Part shown: in pieces, positions 10,619-44,484 of the stretch
How the letters are laid out: each line of letters opens with the position of its first letter
Position numbering within the stretch: the stretch's first letter is position 1
Origin: Thermomicrobium sp. 4228-Ro
Lineage (GTDB): Bacteria > Chloroflexota > Chloroflexia > Thermomicrobiales > Thermomicrobiaceae
NCBI RefSeq assembly: GCF_026241205.1
Contig: NZ_JAPFQM010000001.1
Coordinates: forward strand, 1,178,001 to 1,242,000
Reading direction: 5' to 3'
Length of the DNA: 64,000 bases
The notes under the pieces: generated by a model
Database searches by the model: none
The model's input: the letters and a program-made list of their open reading frames with translations, nothing else
Told to the model about the DNA's origin: nothing
Position numbers and translations under genes: made by a program

Positions 10619-11887
10619 TCATTTGCCGAGAGTGATCATGGTCAGTACTGCCTCGATCCGCTCGCGCAGGCGTTCGAGCCACTCGAAGATCCGGCGTGCC
10701 TCGTCCGCTGTGACCGGTGGCAGACCGCTCGGGGTGAAATGCCACGTGCGGGCGAGGAGTGCAGGTTCGTCAGGGGCCGTCAGGATCGGTGTGCCACGGT
10801 GGGTCAAGATCGCGGCGAGCCGCTCAGCGATACCGAGTTCGCGAGCGAGCAGGTGCTCCCACGTTTGGGCAGCGAGGTCTGCGAACCAGTACCTGAAGCG
10901 CACGAGCGGGAGCTCACCGAGCGTCTCGGCGACGTTCGACCAGCCGGTGGTGTCGTCCGGTGCTGGCGGGAAAGGATCGAGCGACGCGCCGTGGGCCTCG
11001 GCTACGGTGGCCGGAAACCAGGCAAACCAGATCGCCCAGAAACGCCGGAAGGCAGTGACGAGGTCGCGGATCTCGAGTTCCTCGGGTGGCCGCTCGGCTT
11101 CGAGTTGCCCCATCGCGGTCAGGGAATAGCGGAGCAACTCGCGGAACGCGCGAATCCGTTCTGGTAACTCGAGATTCGCGGCGTCGAACCACCGCTTCTG
11201 GTATGCCCACGTGCCGACGAGTTGGGCAAGATCGAAATCACTGTCGGCGAGTGCGACTTGGACGGTCTGGTCAATCGTTTCGATTTCTTCGGCCGCTGCA
11301 GTGGCATGCTCCAGGAGCGTTTCGATCCAGCGCAGGCTGGCCTGGCATTCCTCAGCCGTAATGTCGAGTGGGACGGGAAAGGTGTACCGGTCGAGACAGC
11401 CGCGTGTCCAGTTCCCGCCGAAGGGATCCAGGACGACCATCGAGAAACCGGTCGGCACTCCGGGATCCTCGAGTGCCAGGTCGAGCCAGCGCACGATGCC
11501 GAACTCCTCGGCGAGTGTCCGTGCCAGCGGATGCTCAGCGAGCCCGGGGAACCAGTACCGGAAACGGACGATGTAGAGGTCACCGATCGCATCGCGGAGC
11601 GCTTGCCACCCTTCGTGGTCGTCGTCAGCTGGGATGTAGGCACGGGCGTTCACGCGTGCGAGGTTGTACGGGTCGCTCCAGAGGCGTTGCCGAACTGGGT
11701 GGTCTTCCGGCATATACTCGGCGATGAACGCGGTGAACCACAGGTGGAAGAATTCGTAGCTTCGCCAGAGATCGTACGAGGGAATGAAGAACGCCGCTTC
11801 GTGATCGCTGGCCAGGTTGCTCGCATCGAAGTAGGTCGCACGCAGGAACGCCAGGTCGTAAGCGATTTCGCGCATTGCCTGGCTCAT
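10619..11887 (-). CDS. Unrecognised soluble protein with internal duplication
   Basis: A 422-residue soluble protein I cannot assign to a family. It consists of two similar halves. The phrase VRFRYWF occurs at about residues 106-112 and again near 325-331. Each copy is preceded by GW and an amphipathic helix (LRDAIGDL versus VAETLGEL) and followed by a similar acidic stretch (TLAEEFGIV versus LLARELGIA). Each half then has a Phe/Tyr-rich segment and a long helix. Aromatic residues, mostly Trp, Tyr and Phe, are unusually frequent (for example FWAIWFAWFP). There is no signal peptide, metal motif or nucleotide site. GGAGGGAG precedes the ATG. It stands between the MshC-like gene and the small membrane protein gene and could share a transcript with the latter. 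Confidence 0.75.
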   Translation of the reverse strand: MSQAMREIAYDLAFLRATYFDASNLASDHEAAFFIPSYDLWRSYEFFHLWFTAFIAEYMPEDHPVRQRLWSDPYNLARVNARAYIPADDDHEGWQALRDAIGDLYIVRFRYWFPGLAEHPLARTLAEEFGIVRWLDLALEDPGVPTGFSMVVLDPFGGNWTRGCLDRYTFPVPLDITAEECQASLRWIETLLEHATAAAEEIETIDQTVQVALADSDFDLAQLVGTWAYQKRWFDAANLELPERIRAFRELLRYSLTAMGQLEAERPPEELEIRDLVTAFRRFWAIWFAWFPATVAEAHGASLDPFPPAPDDTTGWSNVAETLGELPLVRFRYWFADLAAQTWEHLLARELGIAERLAAILTHRGTPILTAPDEPALLARTWHFTPSGLPPVTADEARRIFEWLERLRERIEAVLTMITLGK

Positions 11888-11995: not shown

Positions 11996-13249
11996 TCACC
12001 GTGTCACGGTGAGGCCGAGGAGCCCGCCCATCTCGCGGAGCTGCTCGCGGGCCCGCTCGATGTCGCGCCCCTCCCGCGCGGCGGTCAGGAGCCGTTCACC
12101 TGCCTCGGCGAGGAGTTCGATCGCGCGCGGTGTATCGAGGTCGTCGGAGAGGGCAGCGACCATCGCGTCGCGCAGCGGTGCGAGGTCGAGCGGTGTCGCT
12201 GAGCCGCCGGTCGCGTTGACCGCCTCGCGTAACCGCCGGACGAGCGGCTCGAAGCGGGCTGGCCCGTCGTCCTCGTAGGCGAACGGTGTCCGGTAGTGGT
12301 GACTGAGGAGGTAGAGGCGGATCGCATCGCCGGAGTGACGCCGCAGCGTGTCGCGGACGAGGACGAGATTGCCCAGCGATTTCGACATCTTCGCACCCTG
12401 GTATTCGACCATCGCGACATGGACCCAGAAGCGCGCGAACGGCTTGGCGCCGGTATAGCCCTCGGACTGCGCGATCTCGCTCTCGTGGTGCGGATAGATG
12501 AGGTCGTAACCGCCCCCGTGCACGTCGATCTGGAGGCCGAGGTACTTCATCGCCATGGCGCTGCATTCGATGTGCCAGCCAGGCCGTCCCGGTCCCCAGG
12601 GACTGTCCCAGGTCGGTTCGCCGGGCTGGGCAGCTTGCCAGAGAACGAAATCGAGCGGGTCTTCCTTCCGCGGATCCTGCGGATCGGCGCCCCGCTCGGC
12701 CGAGAGCCGGATCATCTCCTCGCGACTACAGCGACAGAGCTGCCCGTAATCCGGATCGCTGGCGACGCGGAAGTAGACGTTCCCGTCCCGCACGTAGGCG
12801 GCGCCGCGTTCGATGAGCCGCTGGATGATCTCGATCATGAGCGGGATTTCTTCGGTCGCTCGGGGGAAAACGGACGGGAAGAGGACGTTGAGCGCGTTCA
12901 GGTCTTCCTGGAACTGGCGGATATAGCGATCACCGAGTCGATCCCAGGGCTCGCCCACCTCACGCGCCTTCCGCAGGATGTCGTCATCGATGTCGGTGAT
13001 GTTCTGGACGTACTTGACGCGCCAGCCATGGAACTGGCAGATCCGATTGAAGACGTCGAAGACGAGATAGGTCATCGCATGGCCCATGTGCGTGGTGTCG
13101 TAGGGGGTCACGCCACAGACGTAGAGTCGTACCGTTCGCCCGTCGGCCGGCGCGAACGGTTCGATCGTTCGAGTGAGCGAATTGAACAGCTGCACGGCTT
13201 CTCGCGCTCCCTCCAGCACTCGCGTCCCTCGCTTCGGGTATCGTACCAT
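11996..13249 (-). CDS. Cysteinyl-tRNA synthetase-family ligase, MshC-like
   Basis: Class I cysteine-activating enzyme of about 417 residues. HIGH-type motif THMGHAMTYLVFD, zinc/cysteine site in YVCGVTPYD, GRPGWHIECSAMAM and KMSKSLGN are all present. Several phrases resemble MshC (L-cysteine:glucosaminyl-inositol ligase of mycothiol synthesis) more than CysS: CGVTPYDTTHMGHA where CysS usually has CGPTVYD, AERGADP...DPLDFVLWQAAQPG, and NLVLV...DAIRLYLLSHHYR. The protein is also short like MshC (about 410) rather than CysS (about 460). Only about 100 residues follow KMSKS, so the anticodon-binding part is small. The ATG at 13249 is 43 bases from the divergent seleno-peroxiredoxin. tRNA charging remains possible; presence of another cysS would decide. 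Confidence 0.75.
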   Translation of the reverse strand: MVRYPKRGTRVLEGAREAVQLFNSLTRTIEPFAPADGRTVRLYVCGVTPYDTTHMGHAMTYLVFDVFNRICQFHGWRVKYVQNITDIDDDILRKAREVGEPWDRLGDRYIRQFQEDLNALNVLFPSVFPRATEEIPLMIEIIQRLIERGAAYVRDGNVYFRVASDPDYGQLCRCSREEMIRLSAERGADPQDPRKEDPLDFVLWQAAQPGEPTWDSPWGPGRPGWHIECSAMAMKYLGLQIDVHGGGYDLIYPHHESEIAQSEGYTGAKPFARFWVHVAMVEYQGAKMSKSLGNLVLVRDTLRRHSGDAIRLYLLSHHYRTPFAYEDDGPARFEPLVRRLREAVNATGGSATPLDLAPLRDAMVAALSDDLDTPRAIELLAEAGERLLTAAREGRDIERAREQLREMGGLLGLTVTR

Positions 13250-13292
13250 CGGAAAGGCGAGCGGAAAGCGCGTCGAGCGGGAAGGACGTGGC

Positions 13293-13769
13293 ATGGCAGG
13301 ACGAGTCGGTGAACGAGCACCGGAATTCCGTTTACCGAGTACGCTCGGTCGACCACTCGCGTTGAGCGAGATCCTCCAAGAGCGGATCGCGCTCCTCGCG
13401 TTCTTCCATTTCGCCTTCACCGGTGGTTGAGCGAACCAACTGTCCCAGTTGTGGGGCAGGATCGAGGAGATCCGTGCGCTCGGCGCCGAGGTCTATGCGA
13501 TCAGTTGCGACAGCCACTTCGCTCAAGCCGCCTGGGCACGCGAACTCGGGGTCGGTTTTCCTTTCCTCAGCGACTGGAACCGCGATGTCATCGCCGCCTA
13601 CGACGTGAAGCTGGACGAGCTGGCGGGCTACCGTGAGGTGCCAGCTCGGGCGCTCGTCGTCGTCGACCGCGACGGGACGATCGTCCACCGGGACCGTGCG
13701 CCGCTCCGAGAACTCCCGGACGTCGAGGCTGCGGTCGCGGCGTTGCGGTCACTGGCGGCGCGCTCCTGA
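13293..13769 (+). CDS. AhpE-type peroxiredoxin, predicted selenoprotein (TGA at 13428)
   Basis: One-Cys peroxiredoxin of the AhpE class, reducing peroxides in the cytoplasm. The frame runs MAGRVGERAPEF ... AFFHFAFTGG, then TGA at 13428-13430, then ANQLSQLWGRIEE ... to a TGA at 13769. All conserved elements continue across the TGA in the same frame. Mycobacterial AhpE has AFTGICQGEL with catalytic Cys45; here AFTGG-U-ANQL puts the TGA at residue 46, exactly on the peroxidatic residue. Downstream are DSHFAQAAWA, FPFLSDWNRDVI and VVVDRDGTI as in the family. Total length with selenocysteine is 158, normal for AhpE. An eight-base-pair hairpin starts ten bases after the TGA. GGGAAGG precedes the ATG. 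It is divergent from the MshC-like gene and overlaps the NDH-2 gene tail to tail by 21 bases. Confidence 0.88.
13440..13459 (+). promoter_or_regulatory. Candidate bacterial SECIS hairpin in peroxiredoxin
   Basis: Eight-base-pair stem (13440-13447 with 13452-13459, one U-G pair) closed by a GUUG tetraloop, starting ten bases after the TGA at 13428-13430. The apical loop lies 18-21 bases after the TGA, the spacing required for SelB-directed selenocysteine insertion, and contains the GU that bacterial loops usually carry. Confidence 0.65.
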
Positions 13770-15328: not shown

Positions 15329-16144
15329 ATGGGTGCACGCGGGTTCGGCCTCGCCGCTGCAGTGTCCCACGAGGTGATCCGTGCTGCGGTGAGCGCCTGC
15401 GAGACACTGGGCTATCGCACCTTTTGGGTCAACGATACGCCGGACGGTGATGGACTGGCTGCGCTGGCCGCTGCAGCTGCGGTGACGAGCCGCATCGCGC
15501 TCGGTGTGGGGGTCTTGCCGCTCTCGCGCTGGACGCCGGAGCGGATCGTCGAACGTGTCCGGGAACTCGACTTGCCGGTCGAACGACTGCGCTTGGGGAT
15601 CGGTTCGGGCGCCGGAAGCGGAGCGCTCGAACGAGTCCGTCAGGGGGCGCAGGTGCTCCGAGCGGCGCTCTCGTGCGAACTGGTCGTCGCCGCGCTCGGC
15701 CCCCGCATGTGCCGGCTGGCGGGCGAAGTCGCCGATGCTGTCCTCTTCAACTGGTTGACACCGGAGTTCGTCGATCGCTCGACCGATTGGCTCCGCGAAG
15801 GTGCCGAGGCGGCCGGCCGACCGCTCCCGAAGCGCTACGCGTACGTGCGTGTCGCCCTCGGACAAGCGGCGCTCCCCCGCTTGGAAGACGAAGCAGCCCG
15901 GTACGAGCGATTCCCTGGCTATCGTGAGCACTTCCAGCGTATGGGTGTCCCGGCACGCGCGACGGCGATCGCGGTGGAAAGGGCTGAAGACCTTTCGGCG
16001 GCGCTGGCTCCGTGGGAGGAACGTCTCGACGAGACGGTCGTGCGAGCAGTGACGGCGAACGACCGGCTCGAGGAGGTCCTGGCGCTCGTCGAGGCAGCGG
16101 CACCGGGCCGTCAGCTCGGCTCGGGGGGCCACGGGGTTTCCTGA
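15329..16144 (+). CDS. Luciferase-like (LLM) flavin-dependent oxidoreductase
   Basis: TIM-barrel oxidoreductase of the bacterial luciferase / F420-dependent class, 271 residues, a little shorter than the usual 290-340. Visible signatures are GYRTFWVNDTPDGDGL near residues 28-43, SRIALGVGVLPLSRWTPE near 54-71, the barrel strand RLRLGIGSGAGSG near 86-98 and VADAVLFNWLTPE near 134-146. The reaction is not predictable; F420 or FMN could be the cofactor. GGGGAGGACGCG leads into the ATG. Its 3' end overlaps that of the DinB gene by 34 bases on the opposite strand. Confidence 0.8.
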   Translation: MGARGFGLAAAVSHEVIRAAVSACETLGYRTFWVNDTPDGDGLAALAAAAAVTSRIALGVGVLPLSRWTPERIVERVRELDLPVERLRLGIGSGAGSGALERVRQGAQVLRAALSCELVVAALGPRMCRLAGEVADAVLFNWLTPEFVDRSTDWLREGAEAAGRPLPKRYAYVRVALGQAALPRLEDEAARYERFPGYREHFQRMGVPARATAIAVERAEDLSAALAPWEERLDETVVRAVTANDRLEEVLALVEAAAPGRQLGSGGHGVS

Positions 16145-16578
16145 CCAGCGAGCAGGCGCTCGATCTGCTCGAGATGTCTGCGATCGTGCTCGACCAGCTC
16201 TTCGACGAGATCCTCGACTGTGACCTCGCCGAGCGTCTCGTGGATGGCGGCTCGCTCCCAGTCCTTCAGCGAGAGTGTCATCAGTGTCGTGAGCGTCTCG
16301 CCGCGCTCCTGTCCGAGCCGTTTGAGTGCCTCGGCGAGCGATGGAACCGACTCGGCCACGACGGCGAGGTCGGTCGCGCGGAAGTACGGCGTATCCTGCG
16401 CGACCATCCGCAGGATCCGCTCGCGCATCAACGCTTCGACCGCCGCGAGGTGGGCGACGACCCGCGTGAAATGCTCCGTACCCGTCGCAGAGGGAACGTC
16501 CACGTTCTCGAGTAGGCTGGTCAGCCGCCGCGGTGTCTCGGCGAGGAGGTCGATCAGTTCCTGATACGGATGCAGCAT
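16111..16578 (-). CDS. DinB-superfamily four-helix protein
   Basis: A 155-residue DinB/DfsB-type four-helix bundle protein. Family members bind a metal through three histidines and many transfer thiols (mycothiol or bacillithiol) to substrates. Candidate ligands are the histidines in VVAHLAAVEALMRERI (residues 40-55), HETLGEVTV (113-121) and EHDRRHLEQIERLL (130-143). AAGGGA lies nine bases before the ATG at 16578. It follows the VOC gene by 31 bases on the same strand and may share its transcript. The possible thiol-S-transferase role is interesting given the MshC-like gene 3 kb away, but is only a family-level suggestion. Confidence 0.78.
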   Translation of the reverse strand: MLHPYQELIDLLAETPRRLTSLLENVDVPSATGTEHFTRVVAHLAAVEALMRERILRMVAQDTPYFRATDLAVVAESVPSLAEALKRLGQERGETLTTLMTLSLKDWERAAIHETLGEVTVEDLVEELVEHDRRHLEQIERLLAGQETPWPPEPS

Positions 16579-16609
16579 GCTGGTGCGGTCCCTTCGTCTG
16601 GCGGGTGAT

Positions 16610-22129: not shown

Positions 22130-22970
22130 GGCGTGCTTTCCTTCCCTGCTTGAACGACAGGAGCGCCGCCAGGCCGAGCGCGAGCGCGGCGAGCGCGCTG
22201 GTCAGGAAAGCGGGGAATACGCGTCGCTGGGGGAGTTCCGGTTCGGCCGGGAGGTTGTAGACCTCCGGTGGGGCTGTCAGGATGAAGAAGGCGTTGAGCC
22301 CGCCGATCCCACCGGTGCCGCCGAGCGCCTCGTCGCCGTAGATCCGTGCCTCGATCCCCTGTGCCTGCAGCTCGGCGACGCGTGCCCTGGCTCGGTCCAT
22401 CAGGGCATGCACCGGACCGAACTGGATGGCATCGGTCGGGCAAGCTTTGGCGCAGGCCGGTTCGAGCCCGTCCTTCACCCGGTCGTAGCACAGGGTGCAC
22501 TTGTGCGCCTTCCCGTCGTACGGGCTCAGGGCGGGAACACCGAAGGGGCAGGCTGGGACACAATAGCCGCACCCGTTGCAGATGTCCTGCTGGATCACGA
22601 CGGTGTCGAACTCGGTGCGGATGATGGCACCGGTCGGGCATGCTTCCATGCATCCGGCGTTGACGCAGTGCTTGCAGACATCGCTCAACATCAGCCAGTT
22701 GCTCTGGAAGGGAGCCAGGCGGGTCGGTCGCCGTCCCTCGCGGTCGCTGATCCGCTCGATGAAGGCGACGTGGCGCCAGGTGGTCGCGCCGAGGTCGCCA
22801 GTGTTGTCGTAGCTCATCCCGGTAAAGCCGAAGTCGTCCATCGGGAGCTGGTTCCACTGCTTGCAAGCGACCTCGCAGGCCTTGCAACCGATGCAGAGGG
22901 TCGTATCGGTGAGAAAGCCGAAAGCCCCGGGCCGGGCGCGCGTCCGCCCGACCGGCACCGCGCTGCTCAT
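22122..22970 (-). CDS. Formate dehydrogenase iron-sulfur subunit
   Basis: Electron-transfer subunit of 282 residues with four [4Fe-4S] clusters. Cysteine groups are CIGCKACEVACKQW (residues 26-39), CKHCVNAGCMEACP (98-111), CNGCGYCVPACP (131-142) and CTLCYDRV...ACAKACP (157-178), the FdnH/HybA pattern. A hydrophobic segment near the carboxy end (FPAFLTSALAALALGLAALL) anchors it to the membrane. It carries electrons from the molybdenum or tungsten centre of the catalytic subunit to the NrfD-type subunit. The start overlaps the catalytic gene by four bases. There is no signal peptide. Confidence 0.9.
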   Translation of the reverse strand: MSSAVPVGRTRARPGAFGFLTDTTLCIGCKACEVACKQWNQLPMDDFGFTGMSYDNTGDLGATTWRHVAFIERISDREGRRPTRLAPFQSNWLMLSDVCKHCVNAGCMEACPTGAIIRTEFDTVVIQQDICNGCGYCVPACPFGVPALSPYDGKAHKCTLCYDRVKDGLEPACAKACPTDAIQFGPVHALMDRARARVAELQAQGIEARIYGDEALGGTGGIGGLNAFFILTAPPEVYNLPAEPELPQRRVFPAFLTSALAALALGLAALLSFKQGRKARHD

Positions 22971-25900
22971 GGTTCAGTCCCTTCGCGTCGTCGTCCCTTG
23001 CGGACCGTGCAGGTAAACGACTTGGCCTCGTGGATGAGCGAGTTGGGATCCTCGACCAGCGCAGCCAGCTCGTTGGCGATCCCTCCCGTTGCCAGTCCGC
23101 CGAAGCCGAAGTGCCAGGGCATCCCGATGACATGCACCGTCCGGCCGGCGATCCGGAGCGGCTGCACGCGCTCGGTGACCAGCGCACGCGCTTCAGCTGC
23201 GCCACGGGCGGTCTCGACCACCACCCAGTCGCCATTGGCGATACCCAGCTCGCGGGCCAGCTCCGGGCTGATCTCGACGAAGCCAGCTGGCTGCAGTTCC
23301 GCCAGCCACGGTACCCAGCGACTCATCCCGCCCGCTGTATGGTGCTCGGTCAAGCGGTAGGTGGTGATGACGTAGGGGTAGCGTGGATCACCGATCTCGT
23401 GATACGGGTTGTCGGGGCGGAGGATGAGCGGTGCGACCGGGTTGCGCGGCTGAGACGGGTAGAGCATGTTGGTGACCGGTGTCTCCCAGGGCTCGTAGTG
23501 CGTCGGGAGTGGCCCGTCGAGGAGACCGACCGGGACGAAGAGCCAGCCCAGGCCGTCGAGCATCATGATGAAGGGTGCTGTTCCCGGGTGCGCGTCGAGC
23601 CCGCGAGCCCCTGGTGGTGGCTGGTAGTCGGGCGGCTTCGTCGCAGGAAAGTCGGGGACATCGTAACCGACCCAGCGCCCCTGCTCCGGATCCCACCAGA
23701 TCCACTTCTTGCGCTCGCTCCACGGGCGACCCTGCGGGTCGGCCGAAGCGCGGTTGTAGAGGATGCGCCGGTTGGCTGGCCAGGCGAAGCCCCAGTCCAG
23801 ACTGGCCCGGTCGTCGCCGCGCCGCCGTTTGGCACGGTGCTCGCCGTCGGGTGTCACGATGCCGGAATAGATCCAGCAGCCGCAGGCTGTCGAGCCGTCG
23901 TCGGCGAGCTCGTGGAAGCCAGCCACCGGTCGACCATCGGCCACACGGTACCCGCTGATCTCCTTGGCGACTGCCATCAGGTCCGGCTCCTCGTGCGGCC
24001 CGACCGTCGGATAGTCCCAGGTCAAAGCCTGGATCTGCCGGCCAGCCGGTGAGTCGTCACCGGCGTAGAGCTCCTTCAGCCGCCGCCCGAGGTGGTAGAC
24101 GAAGTGTGCTTCGGAGCGGGCGTCACCCGGTGGATCGATCGCCTTGTCGTGCCACTGGACGAGCCGGTGGGTATTGGTGAAGGTGCCGTCCTTTTCGGCT
24201 GCGATCGCGGCTGGCAGGAAGAAGACTTCGGTCTTGATGTCCTGCGGGCGAATCTCGCCGCTGCGCACTTCCGGCGCGTCGTACCAGAACGAGGCCGTCT
24301 CGATCTCGTGGACGTCGCGCACGACGAGCCAGTCCAGGTTCGCTAGCGCCTGGCGTGCCAGCCGGGCGTTCTGTCCACCGACGGCCGGGTTCATGCCCAT
24401 GACGAAGAGGCCTTTGACGATGCCGTCCTTCATCATGGTGAGGATCGACTGGAAGGAGTAATCACCGCCGATCTTGGGCAGGAAGACGTACCCATACTCG
24501 TTCTCCGGTGTCGCTGCCTCGCCGTACCAGGCCTTGAGGAGCGACACTATGAACTTCGGCATGTCGTACCAGAGCCCGGTCGCTGGGCGTTCGCTCGCGA
24601 GGTACTCGGCCAGCGTGGCGTGCTCGGGAATAGCCCGCGGCATCTTGAGGTAGCCCGGGAGGAGGTCGAAGAGGGTCGGGATATCGGTCGAGCCCTGGAT
24701 GGTGGCGTGGCCGCGCAGGGCGAGGATGCCACCACCGGGCCGGCCGATGTTGCCGAGCAGGAGCTGGAGGAGCGCGCAGCAGGAGATGATCTGGGTACCG
24801 ATCGTGTGCTGGGTCCAGGCGACCGCGTAGCAGAAAGCGGTCGTGCGGTCGCGTCCCGAATTGGCCAGGATCGTCTCGGCGACATCGAGGAAGAGGTCGC
24901 GTGGGACGCCGCATGCCTGCTCGACGAGTTCGGGTGTGTAGCGCGCGAAGTGGCGCTTGACGAGCTGGAAAGCGCAGTGGGGGTGCTCGAGCGTCGGGTC
25001 GCGCTCCGGCTCGATGCGCGGTCGGCACGGCCAGCGTTCACCCTCGAGCGGGCGCCTTTCGCCGGCGTACTGCCAGCTCGCCGGGTCATAGCGGCGCTGC
25101 TTCGGATCGTAGCCGCTGAAGAGTCCTGCCAGCTCTTCAGTGTCGCGGAACTCCCCCGAGACGATCACGCTGGCATTCGTGTAGTGGACGACGTACTCGC
25201 GGAAGAAGGGGTCGGTGTTCCAGCGTTCCGCATTGAGGACATAGTTCACCAGTGCGCCGAGGAAGACGAGGTCGCTCCCCGGGCGGATCGGGACGTAGAG
25301 GTCAGCGAGCGCCGAGGTACGCGAGAAGCGCGGATCGACGTGGATGATCCTAGCGCCACGCTCGCGCGCTTTCACGACGAAGCGGAAGCCGACCGGGTGG
25401 TTCTCGGCCATGTTCGAGCCCATGATGACGATGCAGTCGCTGTCGGCCAGGCTCGCCAGCGTCGTCGTCGCACCACCTCGACCGAGTCGGGCGCCCAGAC
25501 CGGGCACCGTGCTGGAGTGTCATATCCGTGCCTGGTTCTCGACGGCGACGATGCCGAGTCCACCGGTGAACAGCTTCTTGATGAGATAGTTCTCCTCGTT
25601 GTCCAGCGTCGCGCCACCCAGATGGGCGATACCGAGCGTGCGGTTGACCACCAGGCCGCGCTCGTCACGATGGACGAACGTCGCGTCGCGCGTTTGCTTG
25701 ACCAGTTGCGCGATCCGCTCCATCGCCCACTCGAGCGGCCGCTCCTCCCAGTGGTCGCTGTAGGGAGCGCGGTACTTGACGCGGAGTTCGCGCAGCGGAC
25801 TGTGGATGAGCTGCCAGGTCGCTGCGCCCTTGGGGCAGAGGGTACCGCCGTTGATCGGGCTCTCGTAGTTCCCCTCGATGTCGACGATGCGCCCGTCCTT

Positions 25901-26056
25901 GGTGTAGACGAGCTGCGAGCAACCGACCGCGCAGTACGGGCAGACGCTGATGCTCACGTCGGCGCCGCGGACGCGCGCATGCGCCTCGCGCGTCGTGCGA
26001 CTCACTGGGTTCGGAACTAAACCGATATGGTTCCGGAGACGCTGGACGATACCCAT
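22967..26056 (-). CDS. Formate dehydrogenase catalytic subunit, selenoprotein (TGA at 25520-25522)
   Basis: Molybdopterin formate dehydrogenase of about 1029 residues, the FdnG/FdoG length. It oxidises formate to CO2. The amino end has the [4Fe-4S] ligands CPYCAVGC and CPKG. The frame then reads VENQARI-TGA-HSSTVPGLGA; in all selenocysteine formate dehydrogenases this is NQAR-x-U-HS-xTV, so the TGA is residue 179 and ligates the metal. The same frame continues to 22967 through YAVAWTQHTIG, GNIGRPGGG and the cofactor-binding carboxy domain (ANGDWVVVETARG). A SECIS hairpin follows 11 bases after the TGA. The ATG at 26056 is preferred to a GTG at 26068 by RBS spacing. No Tat signal is visible, so the complex may face the cytoplasm. 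Confidence 0.93.
25490..25508 (-). promoter_or_regulatory. SECIS hairpin of formate dehydrogenase
   Basis: On the minus-strand mRNA, GGUGCCC and GGGCGCC form a seven-pair stem (one U-G) closed by the loop GGUCU. It starts 11 bases after the UGA at 25522-25520 and places the loop 18-22 bases downstream. The GGUCU loop is the same as that of Escherichia coli fdhF, the reference SelB-binding SECIS. Confidence 0.88.
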
Positions 26057-26228
26057 GACGCCGGCCACCCTTTCGTGATCGACAACGAGTGTACTCGCTC
26101 GTGGCGGGCGCTCCCACGCCCGGCTCTCGCGTCGACCTGAATCGGCACGGTAGGCAGCGTCGTACCCGCGATTGTGTTAGGCTGGGGTCGAAGGCATCGG
26201 CTGCGCGTCCCTGCGATGGGTGTGAGTT

Positions 26229-42519: not shown

Positions 42520-44058
42520 TCACTCACCTCCACTTACCGGTACTGTCGCAGTCAATGCAGCGCGGTTCAGCGCCATGAGATAGGCGCGGATACTGGCCTC
42601 GATGACGTCCGTCGCGACGCCGCGGCCATTATAGACCTGCATCCCGCAGCGCAGGTGCACGGTCACCTGGCCCTGCGCGTCCTCGCCCGGACTGACGGCA
42701 TCGACGTGGAAGGCCTCCAGTTCGCAGCGGCGGCCGACCAACCGGTCGATCGCCTTGAACAGCGCGTCGATCTGGCCGTTGCCGGTCGCTGACGCCTCGC
42801 GGTCGATCCCGTCGACTTCCAGCTTGACCCAGGCCTCGGCACGCCCGTCGGAACCGGAATGGGCACGCCAGCCCTTGAGGACGTAGCGTTGCGGAACCTG
42901 GGCCAGCTGATCTTCGACGATGGCGATGATGTCGGCATCGGTCACCGTCTTCTTGCGGTCGCAAAGCTCGATGAAGCGCTGATAGAGCTGCTCGATCCGC
43001 TCCGGTGCCAGGTCGCCGTAGCCGAGTTCTTTCAGACGTGCCCGGAAGCCAGCCCGGCCGGAGTGCTTGCCGAGCACCAGGCGGCTCGCTTCCCAGCCGA
43101 CCGACTGCGGCGTCATGATCTCGTACGTCATCCGGTGTTTGAGCATACCGTCCTGGTGGATTCCTGCCTCGTGGGCGAACGCATTGGCACCGACGATCGC
43201 CTTGTTGGGCTGGACCTGGATTCCAGTGATACGCTGAACCAGCTTGGAGGTCGGTACGATCTGCTCGGTCACGATACGCGGCTGAATCGCGCCGAACACG
43301 TCGCGCCGGACGTGCAGGGCCATGACCACCTCTTCGAGCGCCGTGTTGCCGGCTCGCTCGCCGATTCCGTTGATCGTTACCTCAGCTTGCCGGGCACCGA
43401 CGCGGATGGCTGCCAGCGTATTGGCGGTCGCCAGTCCGAGGTCGTTGTGGCAGTGCACGCTCACCGTAACCTTCTCGATGCCGGGTGTGTGCTCCATGAC
43501 ATAGCGGACGAGTTCGGCGAACTCGTGCGGGACAGCATACCCGACCGTGTCCGGGATATTGATCGTCGTCGCCCCTTCTTCGATCGCAGCTGCGAAGACC
43601 CGGCACAGGAAGTCCCAGTCGGAACGGGTCGCGTCCTCCGCCGAGAACTCGACGTCGCCGACGTAGCGCTTGGCGGCGCGTACCGCGAAGCGAGCGGCCT
43701 CGAGGACCTGCTCTGGAGTCTTGCGCAGCTTGTACTCCATGTGGATCGGCGAGGTGGCGATGAAGGTGTGGATGCGCGGCTGCTCGGCCTCGCGCACCCC
43801 TTCCCAGGCAGCATCGATGTCCTGCTGGTTGGCGCGGGCCAGAGCGCAGATAGTGACCCCCTTCACCTCGCGACTGATCCGCTGGACTGCACGGAGGTCT
43901 CCCGGTGACGCCGCCGGGAACCCTGCCTCGATGATGTCGACACCCAGCTTGACCAGCTGGCGGGCTACTTCGACCTTCTCGTCTTCGGTCATCGTCGCGC
44001 CCGGCGACTGCTCGCCGTCGCGCAGTGTCGTATCGAAAATGATGACTCGCTCGCTCAT
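42520..44058 (-). CDS. leuA: 2-isopropylmalate synthase
   Basis: First committed enzyme of leucine synthesis, 512 residues: condenses acetyl-CoA with 2-oxoisovalerate. The barrel has IIFDTTLRDGEQSPGATMTE (residues 6-25), VSVHCHNDLGLATANTLAAI (about 199-218) and NGIGERAGNTALEEVVMALH (about 229-248). FAHEAGIHQDGMLKHRMTYE (about 295-314) follows, then the carboxy-terminal regulatory domain that binds leucine. GGAGGGGAGACG directly precedes the ATG at 44058; the open frame offers a poorer start ten codons upstream. Expression is led by the leucine T-box at 44.24-44.48 kb. Confidence 0.96.
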   Translation of the reverse strand: MSERVIIFDTTLRDGEQSPGATMTEDEKVEVARQLVKLGVDIIEAGFPAASPGDLRAVQRISREVKGVTICALARANQQDIDAAWEGVREAEQPRIHTFIATSPIHMEYKLRKTPEQVLEAARFAVRAAKRYVGDVEFSAEDATRSDWDFLCRVFAAAIEEGATTINIPDTVGYAVPHEFAELVRYVMEHTPGIEKVTVSVHCHNDLGLATANTLAAIRVGARQAEVTINGIGERAGNTALEEVVMALHVRRDVFGAIQPRIVTEQIVPTSKLVQRITGIQVQPNKAIVGANAFAHEAGIHQDGMLKHRMTYEIMTPQSVGWEASRLVLGKHSGRAGFRARLKELGYGDLAPERIEQLYQRFIELCDRKKTVTDADIIAIVEDQLAQVPQRYVLKGWRAHSGSDGRAEAWVKLEVDGIDREASATGNGQIDALFKAIDRLVGRRCELEAFHVDAVSPGEDAQGQVTVHLRCGMQVYNGRGVATDVIEASIRAYLMALNRAALTATVPVSGGE

Positions 44059-44243
44059 CGTCTCCCCTCCGGTGGTCATTACTGACAATCAGACGGCCTC
44101 CCAGGCGGGAGGCCGCGAGCCAGCTCGTTTCTGGCGACCGTCACGCCCGTCCCGCGTCGCTCGTGGCCCCTCCCCGGGGCCGGCTAAGGGAGAGTCGGAG
44201 CAAGCTCGAGACTCGATAGAACATCGCTGTCCCTCTGACGCCA

Positions 44244-44484
44244 AACGGCCCGTCCGCGAAGGGACGGGCCGTTCCCGTGGTACCACCCTACTTGGCCGTC
44301 ACCACGCTGCGTGGCGACGCCCGCTCTCTGCGCTGTAACGGGCGCATCCCGGCACGCGCTACTCGGACGCGTTCACGCATGCAGCTCCGGGACGAGTTCG
44401 CGCGCTACTCCGGGCCGGGCTCCCACCACTCCCCGGCTCGCTGGCCGGACTCGGCGCGCTACTGCTTCCCTTCCGCGCCTTTGC
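44244..44484 (-). promoter_or_regulatory. Leucine-specific T-box riboswitch of leuACDB
   Basis: tRNA-sensing leader on the minus strand. The T-box core GGGUGGUACCACGGG (44288-44274) carries UGGU, complementary to the ACCA end of tRNA-Leu. Upstream, Stem I has GCAG-UA-GCGCGC on its 5' side and GCGCGC-GAACUC...CUGC on its 3' side, placing CUC (44396-44394), a leucine codon, in the specifier position. The apical part GGGGAGUGGUGGGAGCC is typical of T-boxes. The competing terminator is a perfect 12-bp stem (44244-44255 with 44262-44273) followed only by UUUGG. A further 8-bp hairpin (44095-44114) lies between it and the leuA start. Confidence 0.88.

Follow-up and report, generated by a model that had tools for sequence, protein, structure and literature searches.

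The sequence examined here, which we call the window, is a 64,000-nucleotide stretch of the genome of Thermomicrobium sp. 4228-Ro. It contains a short cysteine ligase gene and a peroxiredoxin gene arranged head to head, and the following features were located:

11996-13195, minus strand: short MshC-family cysteine ligase, GTG start, 399 aa plus stop
13196-13292, 97 bp: intergenic region shared by the divergent pair, in which both promoters are presumed to lie
13293-13769, plus strand: selenocysteine (Sec) peroxiredoxin, ATG at 13293, 158 residues including Sec, divergent from the ligase
13428-13430, plus strand: in-frame TGA, read as Sec, at the peroxidatic (Cys) position, in the context FAFTGG-U-ANQL
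13440-13459, plus strand: SECIS-like stem-loop just 3' of the UGA, in which homologues show compensatory base changes
16111-16602, minus strand: DinB_2 family protein (PF12867, 52.4 bits)

The ligase had been predicted from three characteristic sequence phrases, all of which are present on the minus strand. A 474-aa open frame reaching 13420 was considered as its coding sequence and set aside; the likely coding sequence is 11996-13195. The protein is a short form in which HIGH-type and KMSKS motifs and Zn ligands are found in a catalytic domain like that of cysteinyl-tRNA synthetase (CysRS; PF01406, 373 bits in a Pfam profile search) and the anticodon-binding tail is absent. Neither DALR_2 nor CysS_C was detected in it by Pfam, whereas both occur in the full CysS of the same genome. 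This second CysS-like gene, whose possible existence had been raised with the prediction, encodes a protein of 465 aa (P0005) and is located at C1:305090, so that the ligase is not the only CysS of the genome. Such pairs are common: a CysS-like match at E<=1e-80 was obtained in 149 of 150 genomes of the class, most of which carry two. The gene immediately downstream, in the same orientation as the ligase, encodes a 422-aa protein (10619-11887) which has no Pfam or NCBIfam match and appears by eye to consist of two diverged halves.

Among the NCBIfam models, the best match of the ligase was cysS (TIGR00435; 402.7 bits, above the cut-off of 340), while the curated MshC model (TIGR03447) gave 391.1 bits, under its cut-off of 485.1; the full CysS scored 526.9 bits with cysS and 306.0 with MshC. 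As the first model is passed and the second cut-off missed, an annotation pipeline would label the ligase cysS in spite of the full CysS elsewhere, and because of the same missed cut-off we file the protein under the MshC family and not as an MshC equivalog. A phmmer comparison to the PDB gave 342 bits for E. coli CysRS and 319 for MshC. The AlphaFold model of the ligase has a pLDDT of 93.5; a Foldseek search with this model returned a CysRS at rank 1 and a ranking in which CysRS and MshC were intermixed, and structure therefore does not discriminate between the two.

The phylogenetic data do separate them. In an 88-row tree, a branch with 100/100 support had all 51 bacterial and archaeal CysRS on one side and, on the other, 11 MshC from Actinobacteria together with 26 short ligases from Chloroflexota; the window ligase fell with MshC, in agreement with the original prediction. 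A 60-row tree that included PDB 8hfm likewise split CysRS from the short ligases plus MshC, and the 100/100 branch was recovered in a 74-row tree, whose bootstrap was not fully settled, with its 30 CysRS rows on their own side. The divergent short ligase L059 adjoins the CysRS branch with weak support in the 74-row tree and stands beside CysRS rows in the 60-row tree (97/90). Eighteen more loci from other parts of the phylum, hand-picked from search matches, were placed in the 74-row tree; the 15 short ones joined the short ligases and MshC, and the three long-tailed ones joined CysRS. The root was assumed to lie on the CysRS side in all trees, and the rows were subsets chosen for spread (26 of the 44 short ligases in the 88-row tree). 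A motif scan for CysRS patterns returned at least 80 loci, eight of which, being short and actinobacterial, were labelled MshC by length before the tree was made. In the 88-row tree 8/8 of these fell with three MshC from plasmid records, two of them annotated mshC (L196, L197) and one, from Nonomuraea, unannotated and picked by similarity (L195); 36 of the other 72 loci among the scan matches listed also entered this tree.

One possible explanation for the model scores is that the gene encodes a second cysteinyl-tRNA synthetase, serving for example stress or a special tRNA, which has lost its anticodon-binding domain. We consider this improbable: cysS is indeed the best NCBIfam match and the KMSKS and HIGH-type motifs are intact, as is a CysRS-type Glu260, but DALR_2 and CysS_C are both gone, a full CysS is encoded elsewhere and the protein groups with MshC, apart from all 51 CysRS. 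Another scenario is a duplication of CysRS specific to the Chloroflexota lineage, with a short length that is convergent and unrelated to MshC. It would suit the observation that in the 88-row tree the CysRS of Chloroflexota are nearest the split, the 39 CysRS from elsewhere being set apart (100/96). An AU test rejected a clade of short ligases and Chloroflexota CysRS without MshC (delta lnL 75.9, p 1.04e-6), the ligases have an MshC-specific insert and residues in common with MshC (see below), and one short Chloroflexota lineage, G165, is the sister of actinobacterial MshC (97/88, 74-row tree); these results make such a duplication highly improbable. Given the assumed root, the position of the Chloroflexota CysRS nearest the split is compatible with the MshC family having arisen from a Chloroflexota-type CysRS, but descent shared with Actinobacteria may be the explanation instead. 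The reading of the gene as MshC-like thus held with respect to the second CysS and to the separation from CysRS, and fell short at the curated cut-off.

Residues were counted in 44 distinct short ligases, the window's and 43 from other genomes, six duplicate loci being excluded. In the alignment, the Zn ligands C43, C231 and H256, together with T46, T83, H55 and K289, are found in 44/44 short ligases, and the Cys-AMP site and KMSKS are kept throughout; the roles of these MshC sites (Zn ligands, Cys-AMP site) are those given in passages of PMC9736012. Pro47, in the GITPY loop, is present in 44/44 short ligases, 12/12 MshC and 13/93 CysRS, and Gly189 in 43/44, 12/12 and 2/93, respectively. Pro192 occurs in 43/44 short ligases, 11/12 MshC and 0/93 CysRS, within an insert that is absent from 88 of the 93 CysRS. 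Conversely, Glu260 is retained in 44/44 short ligases compared to 3/12 MshC, and the CysRS-type Met234 and Ile261 are retained in the short ligases as well. The tail past mycobacterial MshC residue 410 is 3-11 residues long in the 44 short ligases and 61-73 residues long in 16 CysRS of the same class.

Compared to MshC, the L-cysteine:GlcN-Ins ligase of mycothiol synthesis (TIGR03447; PDB 8hfm, 3c8z), the window ligase thus belongs to the same clade, is of the same length, has the same Zn and Cys-AMP site, shares Pro47 and the insert, and similarly has no anticodon-binding tail. It differs in its identity (~40-44%), its sub-cut-off score, its CysRS-type Glu260 and its Chloroflexota host, and its acceptor is putative. 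With CysRS (TIGR00435) it has the catalytic domain and the fold in common, but it is devoid of DALR_2 and CysS_C and lies on the opposite side of the 100/100 branch. Judging by the conserved active site, the enzyme would form Cys-AMP from L-cysteine and ATP and would then cysteinylate a glucosamine conjugate at its amine. tRNA is not the expected acceptor, because the anticodon-binding domain has been lost, the tree places the protein with MshC and a separate full CysRS exists; the acceptor would most likely be GlcN-inositol.

The presence of partner genes was examined in 25 genomes of the class, picked for quality and spread, all of which (25/25) carry the short ligase. A full-length match to an MshA-like glycosyltransferase was found in 24/25 (345-402 bits), clearly separated in score from ordinary family-4 glycosyltransferases; the cut-off of the MshA model (TIGR03449, 462.5 bits) was passed in 0/25. 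Six second-tier matches to this model (310-333 bits) were examined and were of sucrose-phosphate-synthase types. In a 39-row tree, the 24 class proteins, including P0006 of the window's genome, grouped with four MshA, and the six second-tier proteins fell with cyanobacterial, Burkholderia and Streptomyces rows in an 11-row sucrose-phosphate-synthase group (100/97). Thr134 is conserved in 24/24 class MshA-like proteins and 4/4 MshA, and is Ser or Ala in 11/11 of the sucrose-phosphate-synthase group; Met24 is found in 22/24 and 4/4, and is Gln in 11/11 of that group. Both belong to the MshA positions (24, 25, 78, 110, 134 and 154) which, following the MshA structure literature, we take to be functional sites. 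P0006 itself matches MshA over its full length and has the MshA-type Met24 and Thr134, but scores 370 bits against the cut-off of 462.5, with a phmmer score about equal to that for the cyanobacterial protein Tll1590 (PDB 6kih), presumably a sucrose-phosphate synthase. Inositol-1-phosphate synthase was found in 23/25 genomes; that of the window's genome has mycothiol_INO1 (TIGR03450) as its best model, at 531 bits under a cut-off of 638. The presence of the MshA-like and inositol-phosphate-synthase genes gives the thiol pathway independent support. Two genomes break the co-occurrence: in G059 the ligase is accompanied by neither an MshA-like gene nor inositol-phosphate synthase, and in G039 the latter is missing.

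The later mycothiol genes gave a different picture. MshB scored above its cut-off in 4/25 genomes (G046, G028, G131 and G002) and was found at E<=1e-15 in 0/5 genomes of the window's own family. MshD was above its cut-off in 0/25 (best 90.7 bits, cut-off 163.1); its top scores came from G002, G131, G074, G046 and G028, four of these five being the genomes with MshB above cut-off. The suggestion that msh genes should accompany the ligase was therefore borne out for MshA, at sub-cut-off scores, and not for MshB in the own family or for MshD; in the same way, the low-molecular-weight thiol system proposed earlier is backed by the MshA-like protein and the inositol-phosphate synthase, and a complete mycothiol pathway, with MshB in the own family and MshD, is not. 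PIG-L deacetylases of some kind occur in 25/25 genomes, with seven in the window's genome. Six of these seven were scored (the C11 copy was left out), and none reached the MshB, Mca or BshB cut-off; the nearest model for the PIG-L genes of this genome was BshB1, all of them under its cut-off. In G021, the MshA-like gene is immediately followed by the start of one PIG-L gene, and a second is found at 2.8 kb from the ligase. Within 3.5 kb of an MshA-like gene or ligase, four PIG-L genes were observed (including those in G111 and G074) compared to 0.53 expected, and for distances of 3.5, 5, 20 and 30 kb P was 0.002, 0.006, 0.047 and 0.0002, respectively, values for which close relatives were counted as independent and contig ends were uncorrected. 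When open frames were clustered around the ligase (21 genomes) and around the MshA-like gene (20 genomes), no class-wide operon was found. BshC was absent (0/25), with positive controls in Bacillus, Thermus and Deinobacterium, and a bacillithiol route was accordingly rejected.

Two further PIG-L genes were seen in other surroundings. Of the 25 genomes, 10 from the same taxonomic order as the window's genome have SelB, and in eight of these (G000:C1:478106-480452 and seven related genomes) the next gene after selB, in the same orientation, encodes a divergent PIG-L/LmbE protein. At L041 1408-4404 (G000:C1 57.4-60.4 kb), a PIG-L hydrolase is clustered, as judged by eye, with an amidohydrolase-like and a periplasmic substrate-binding protein, and this is likely a catabolic cluster.

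These data also bear on the possibility that an MshC-like mechanism serves another amine acceptor, such as a different amino sugar, or a polyamine, carrier protein or natural product, in which case the thiol would not be an inositol conjugate. We hold this to be unlikely, although several observations would agree with it: the missed MshC cut-off, the absence of an MshB-type deacetylase from the window's family, PIG-L genes that are nearest to BshB1 and all sub-cut-off, and a ligase in G059 with neither of the two partner genes. Against it stand the co-occurrence of the ligase with the MshA-like gene in 24/25 genomes and with inositol-phosphate synthase in 23/25, and the MshA-type Thr and Met kept where sucrose-phosphate-synthase types have Ser/Ala and Gln.

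The DinB protein of the window had been put forward as a sign of thiol chemistry. Its family assignment (PF12867) was confirmed; for the thiol-S-transferase role there was a weak match to the bacillithiol-transferase model (24.2 bits, cut-off 160), and a function as a thiol-dependent transferase is possible. The window also contains, on the minus strand, a T-box leader (44257-44484; 94 bits, gathering threshold 93) just upstream of leuA (42520-44088).

The peroxiredoxin gene proved to be real and longer than predicted: the open frame reported earlier, 13449-13769, is only the part past the in-frame TGA, and the frame runs from 13293. Since its peroxidatic residue is encoded by an in-frame UGA, the protein is a selenoprotein starting at 13293. 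The TGA is found at the peroxidatic site in 15/15 close homologues (E<1e-40, among 150 class genomes; alignment), and in the stem-loop that follows it 3 of 6 pairs were changed on both sides across the 15 sequences, the outermost pair being broken in four. The genome has the Sec-decoding trait, with tRNA-Sec (anticodon TCA) and SelB (359 bits). A TGA arising from a pseudogene or a sequencing error is hardly credible in view of its conservation, the decoding genes and the covarying stem-loop; the formate dehydrogenase in the window, which also has a TGA at its catalytic site, speaks against it as well. This alpha subunit (22970-26164, minus strand; NF041513, 1522.6 bits, cut-off 1400) has the TGA at 25520-25522, at the catalytic Sec site (ARI-U-HSSTV), and only what lies below 25507 is visible in a plain open reading frame list. 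After the tRNA-Sec gene comes an open frame (L041 9291-10633; G000:C1 near 65290) that by eye resembles a tyrosine recombinase, as if a mobile element sat at tRNA-Sec.

In all 15 genomes with both genes (15/15), peroxiredoxin and ligase are head to head, 47-241 bp apart by match ends, so the predicted divergent arrangement is a conserved one. In five genomes of genus g4, in the window's family, the close peroxiredoxin was not matched, and G126 is incomplete. Among remoter peroxiredoxins, from families of the class other than the window's, the peroxidatic position has TGA in L158-L162, L168 and L171, and Cys in L163-L167, L169, L170 and L172. No NCBIfam cut-off was reached by the window protein. 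Its best solved-structure relatives are archaeal Bcp-type proteins (2cx3, 78 bits), ahead of M. tuberculosis AhpE (44 bits), and the earlier AhpE-type assignment was accordingly dropped. Bacterial Sec peroxiredoxins with a T/S-x-x-U motif are a known kind, as described in parts of PMC1794560; the window protein resembles them in its Sec at the peroxidatic site and its T/S-x-x-U motif, and differs in having archaeal Bcp, followed by AhpE-like peroxiredoxins, as its nearest relatives of solved structure, and in standing head to head with a thiol ligase. Several homologues have Ala or Val in place of its further cysteine (ISCDSH), and since a resolving cysteine is not conserved there, an external thiol reductant is plausible.

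Taken together, these results are best read as a thiol pathway of the Cys-GlcN-inositol type that lacks the actinobacterial cap, in which the MshC-family ligase takes part; we would give this reading, which is drawn from sequence comparison, a probability of about two in three. Inositol-1-phosphate synthase would supply Ins-P, the MshA-like glycosyltransferase would add GlcNAc, a PIG-L family deacetylase would free the amine, and the ligase would add cysteine to yield Cys-GlcN-Ins or a close variant. We regard this four-enzyme route as the most economical explanation. A cap like that of actinobacterial mycothiol is probably absent from the product, because no MshD was found in the window's own family and the deacetylase there is not MshB-type. 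The Sec peroxiredoxin is probably co-regulated with the ligase and may be recycled by the thiol. The pathway reading is weakened by the lack of MshB and MshD in the own family, by G059 and G039, where the co-occurrence fails, and by scores that are below cut-off throughout.

The genes suggest that the Chloroflexota phylum makes a mycothiol-like protective thiol of its own. In the literature searched (titles, abstract openings and selected passages), neither a mycothiol pathway nor an MshC-family ligase was found to be described for Chloroflexota. Chloroflexus aurantiacus is named among bacteria with a novel, unidentified thiol in a passage of a commentary (PMC6336425), and Thermomicrobium roseum is described in part of PMC2615216 as having no glutathione synthesis genes. 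A wider scenario, which we offer tentatively and at less than even odds, is that a cysteinyl-glucosaminyl-inositol thiol, with no cap or a different one, is made by much of Chloroflexota and is identical to the long-reported one of C. aurantiacus; that the mycothiol ligase arose by duplication of a Chloroflexota-type CysRS, actinobacterial MshC being a twig within the Chloroflexota diversity; and that bacteria like the Thermomicrobiaceae coupled the thiol to a dedicated Sec peroxiredoxin. The class-wide set of MshA-like, inositol-phosphate-synthase and MshC-like genes provides a concrete thiol structure to look for, and the same set may mean that the mycothiol ligase originated outside Actinobacteria. 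The adjoining Sec peroxiredoxin offers a testable physiological partner.
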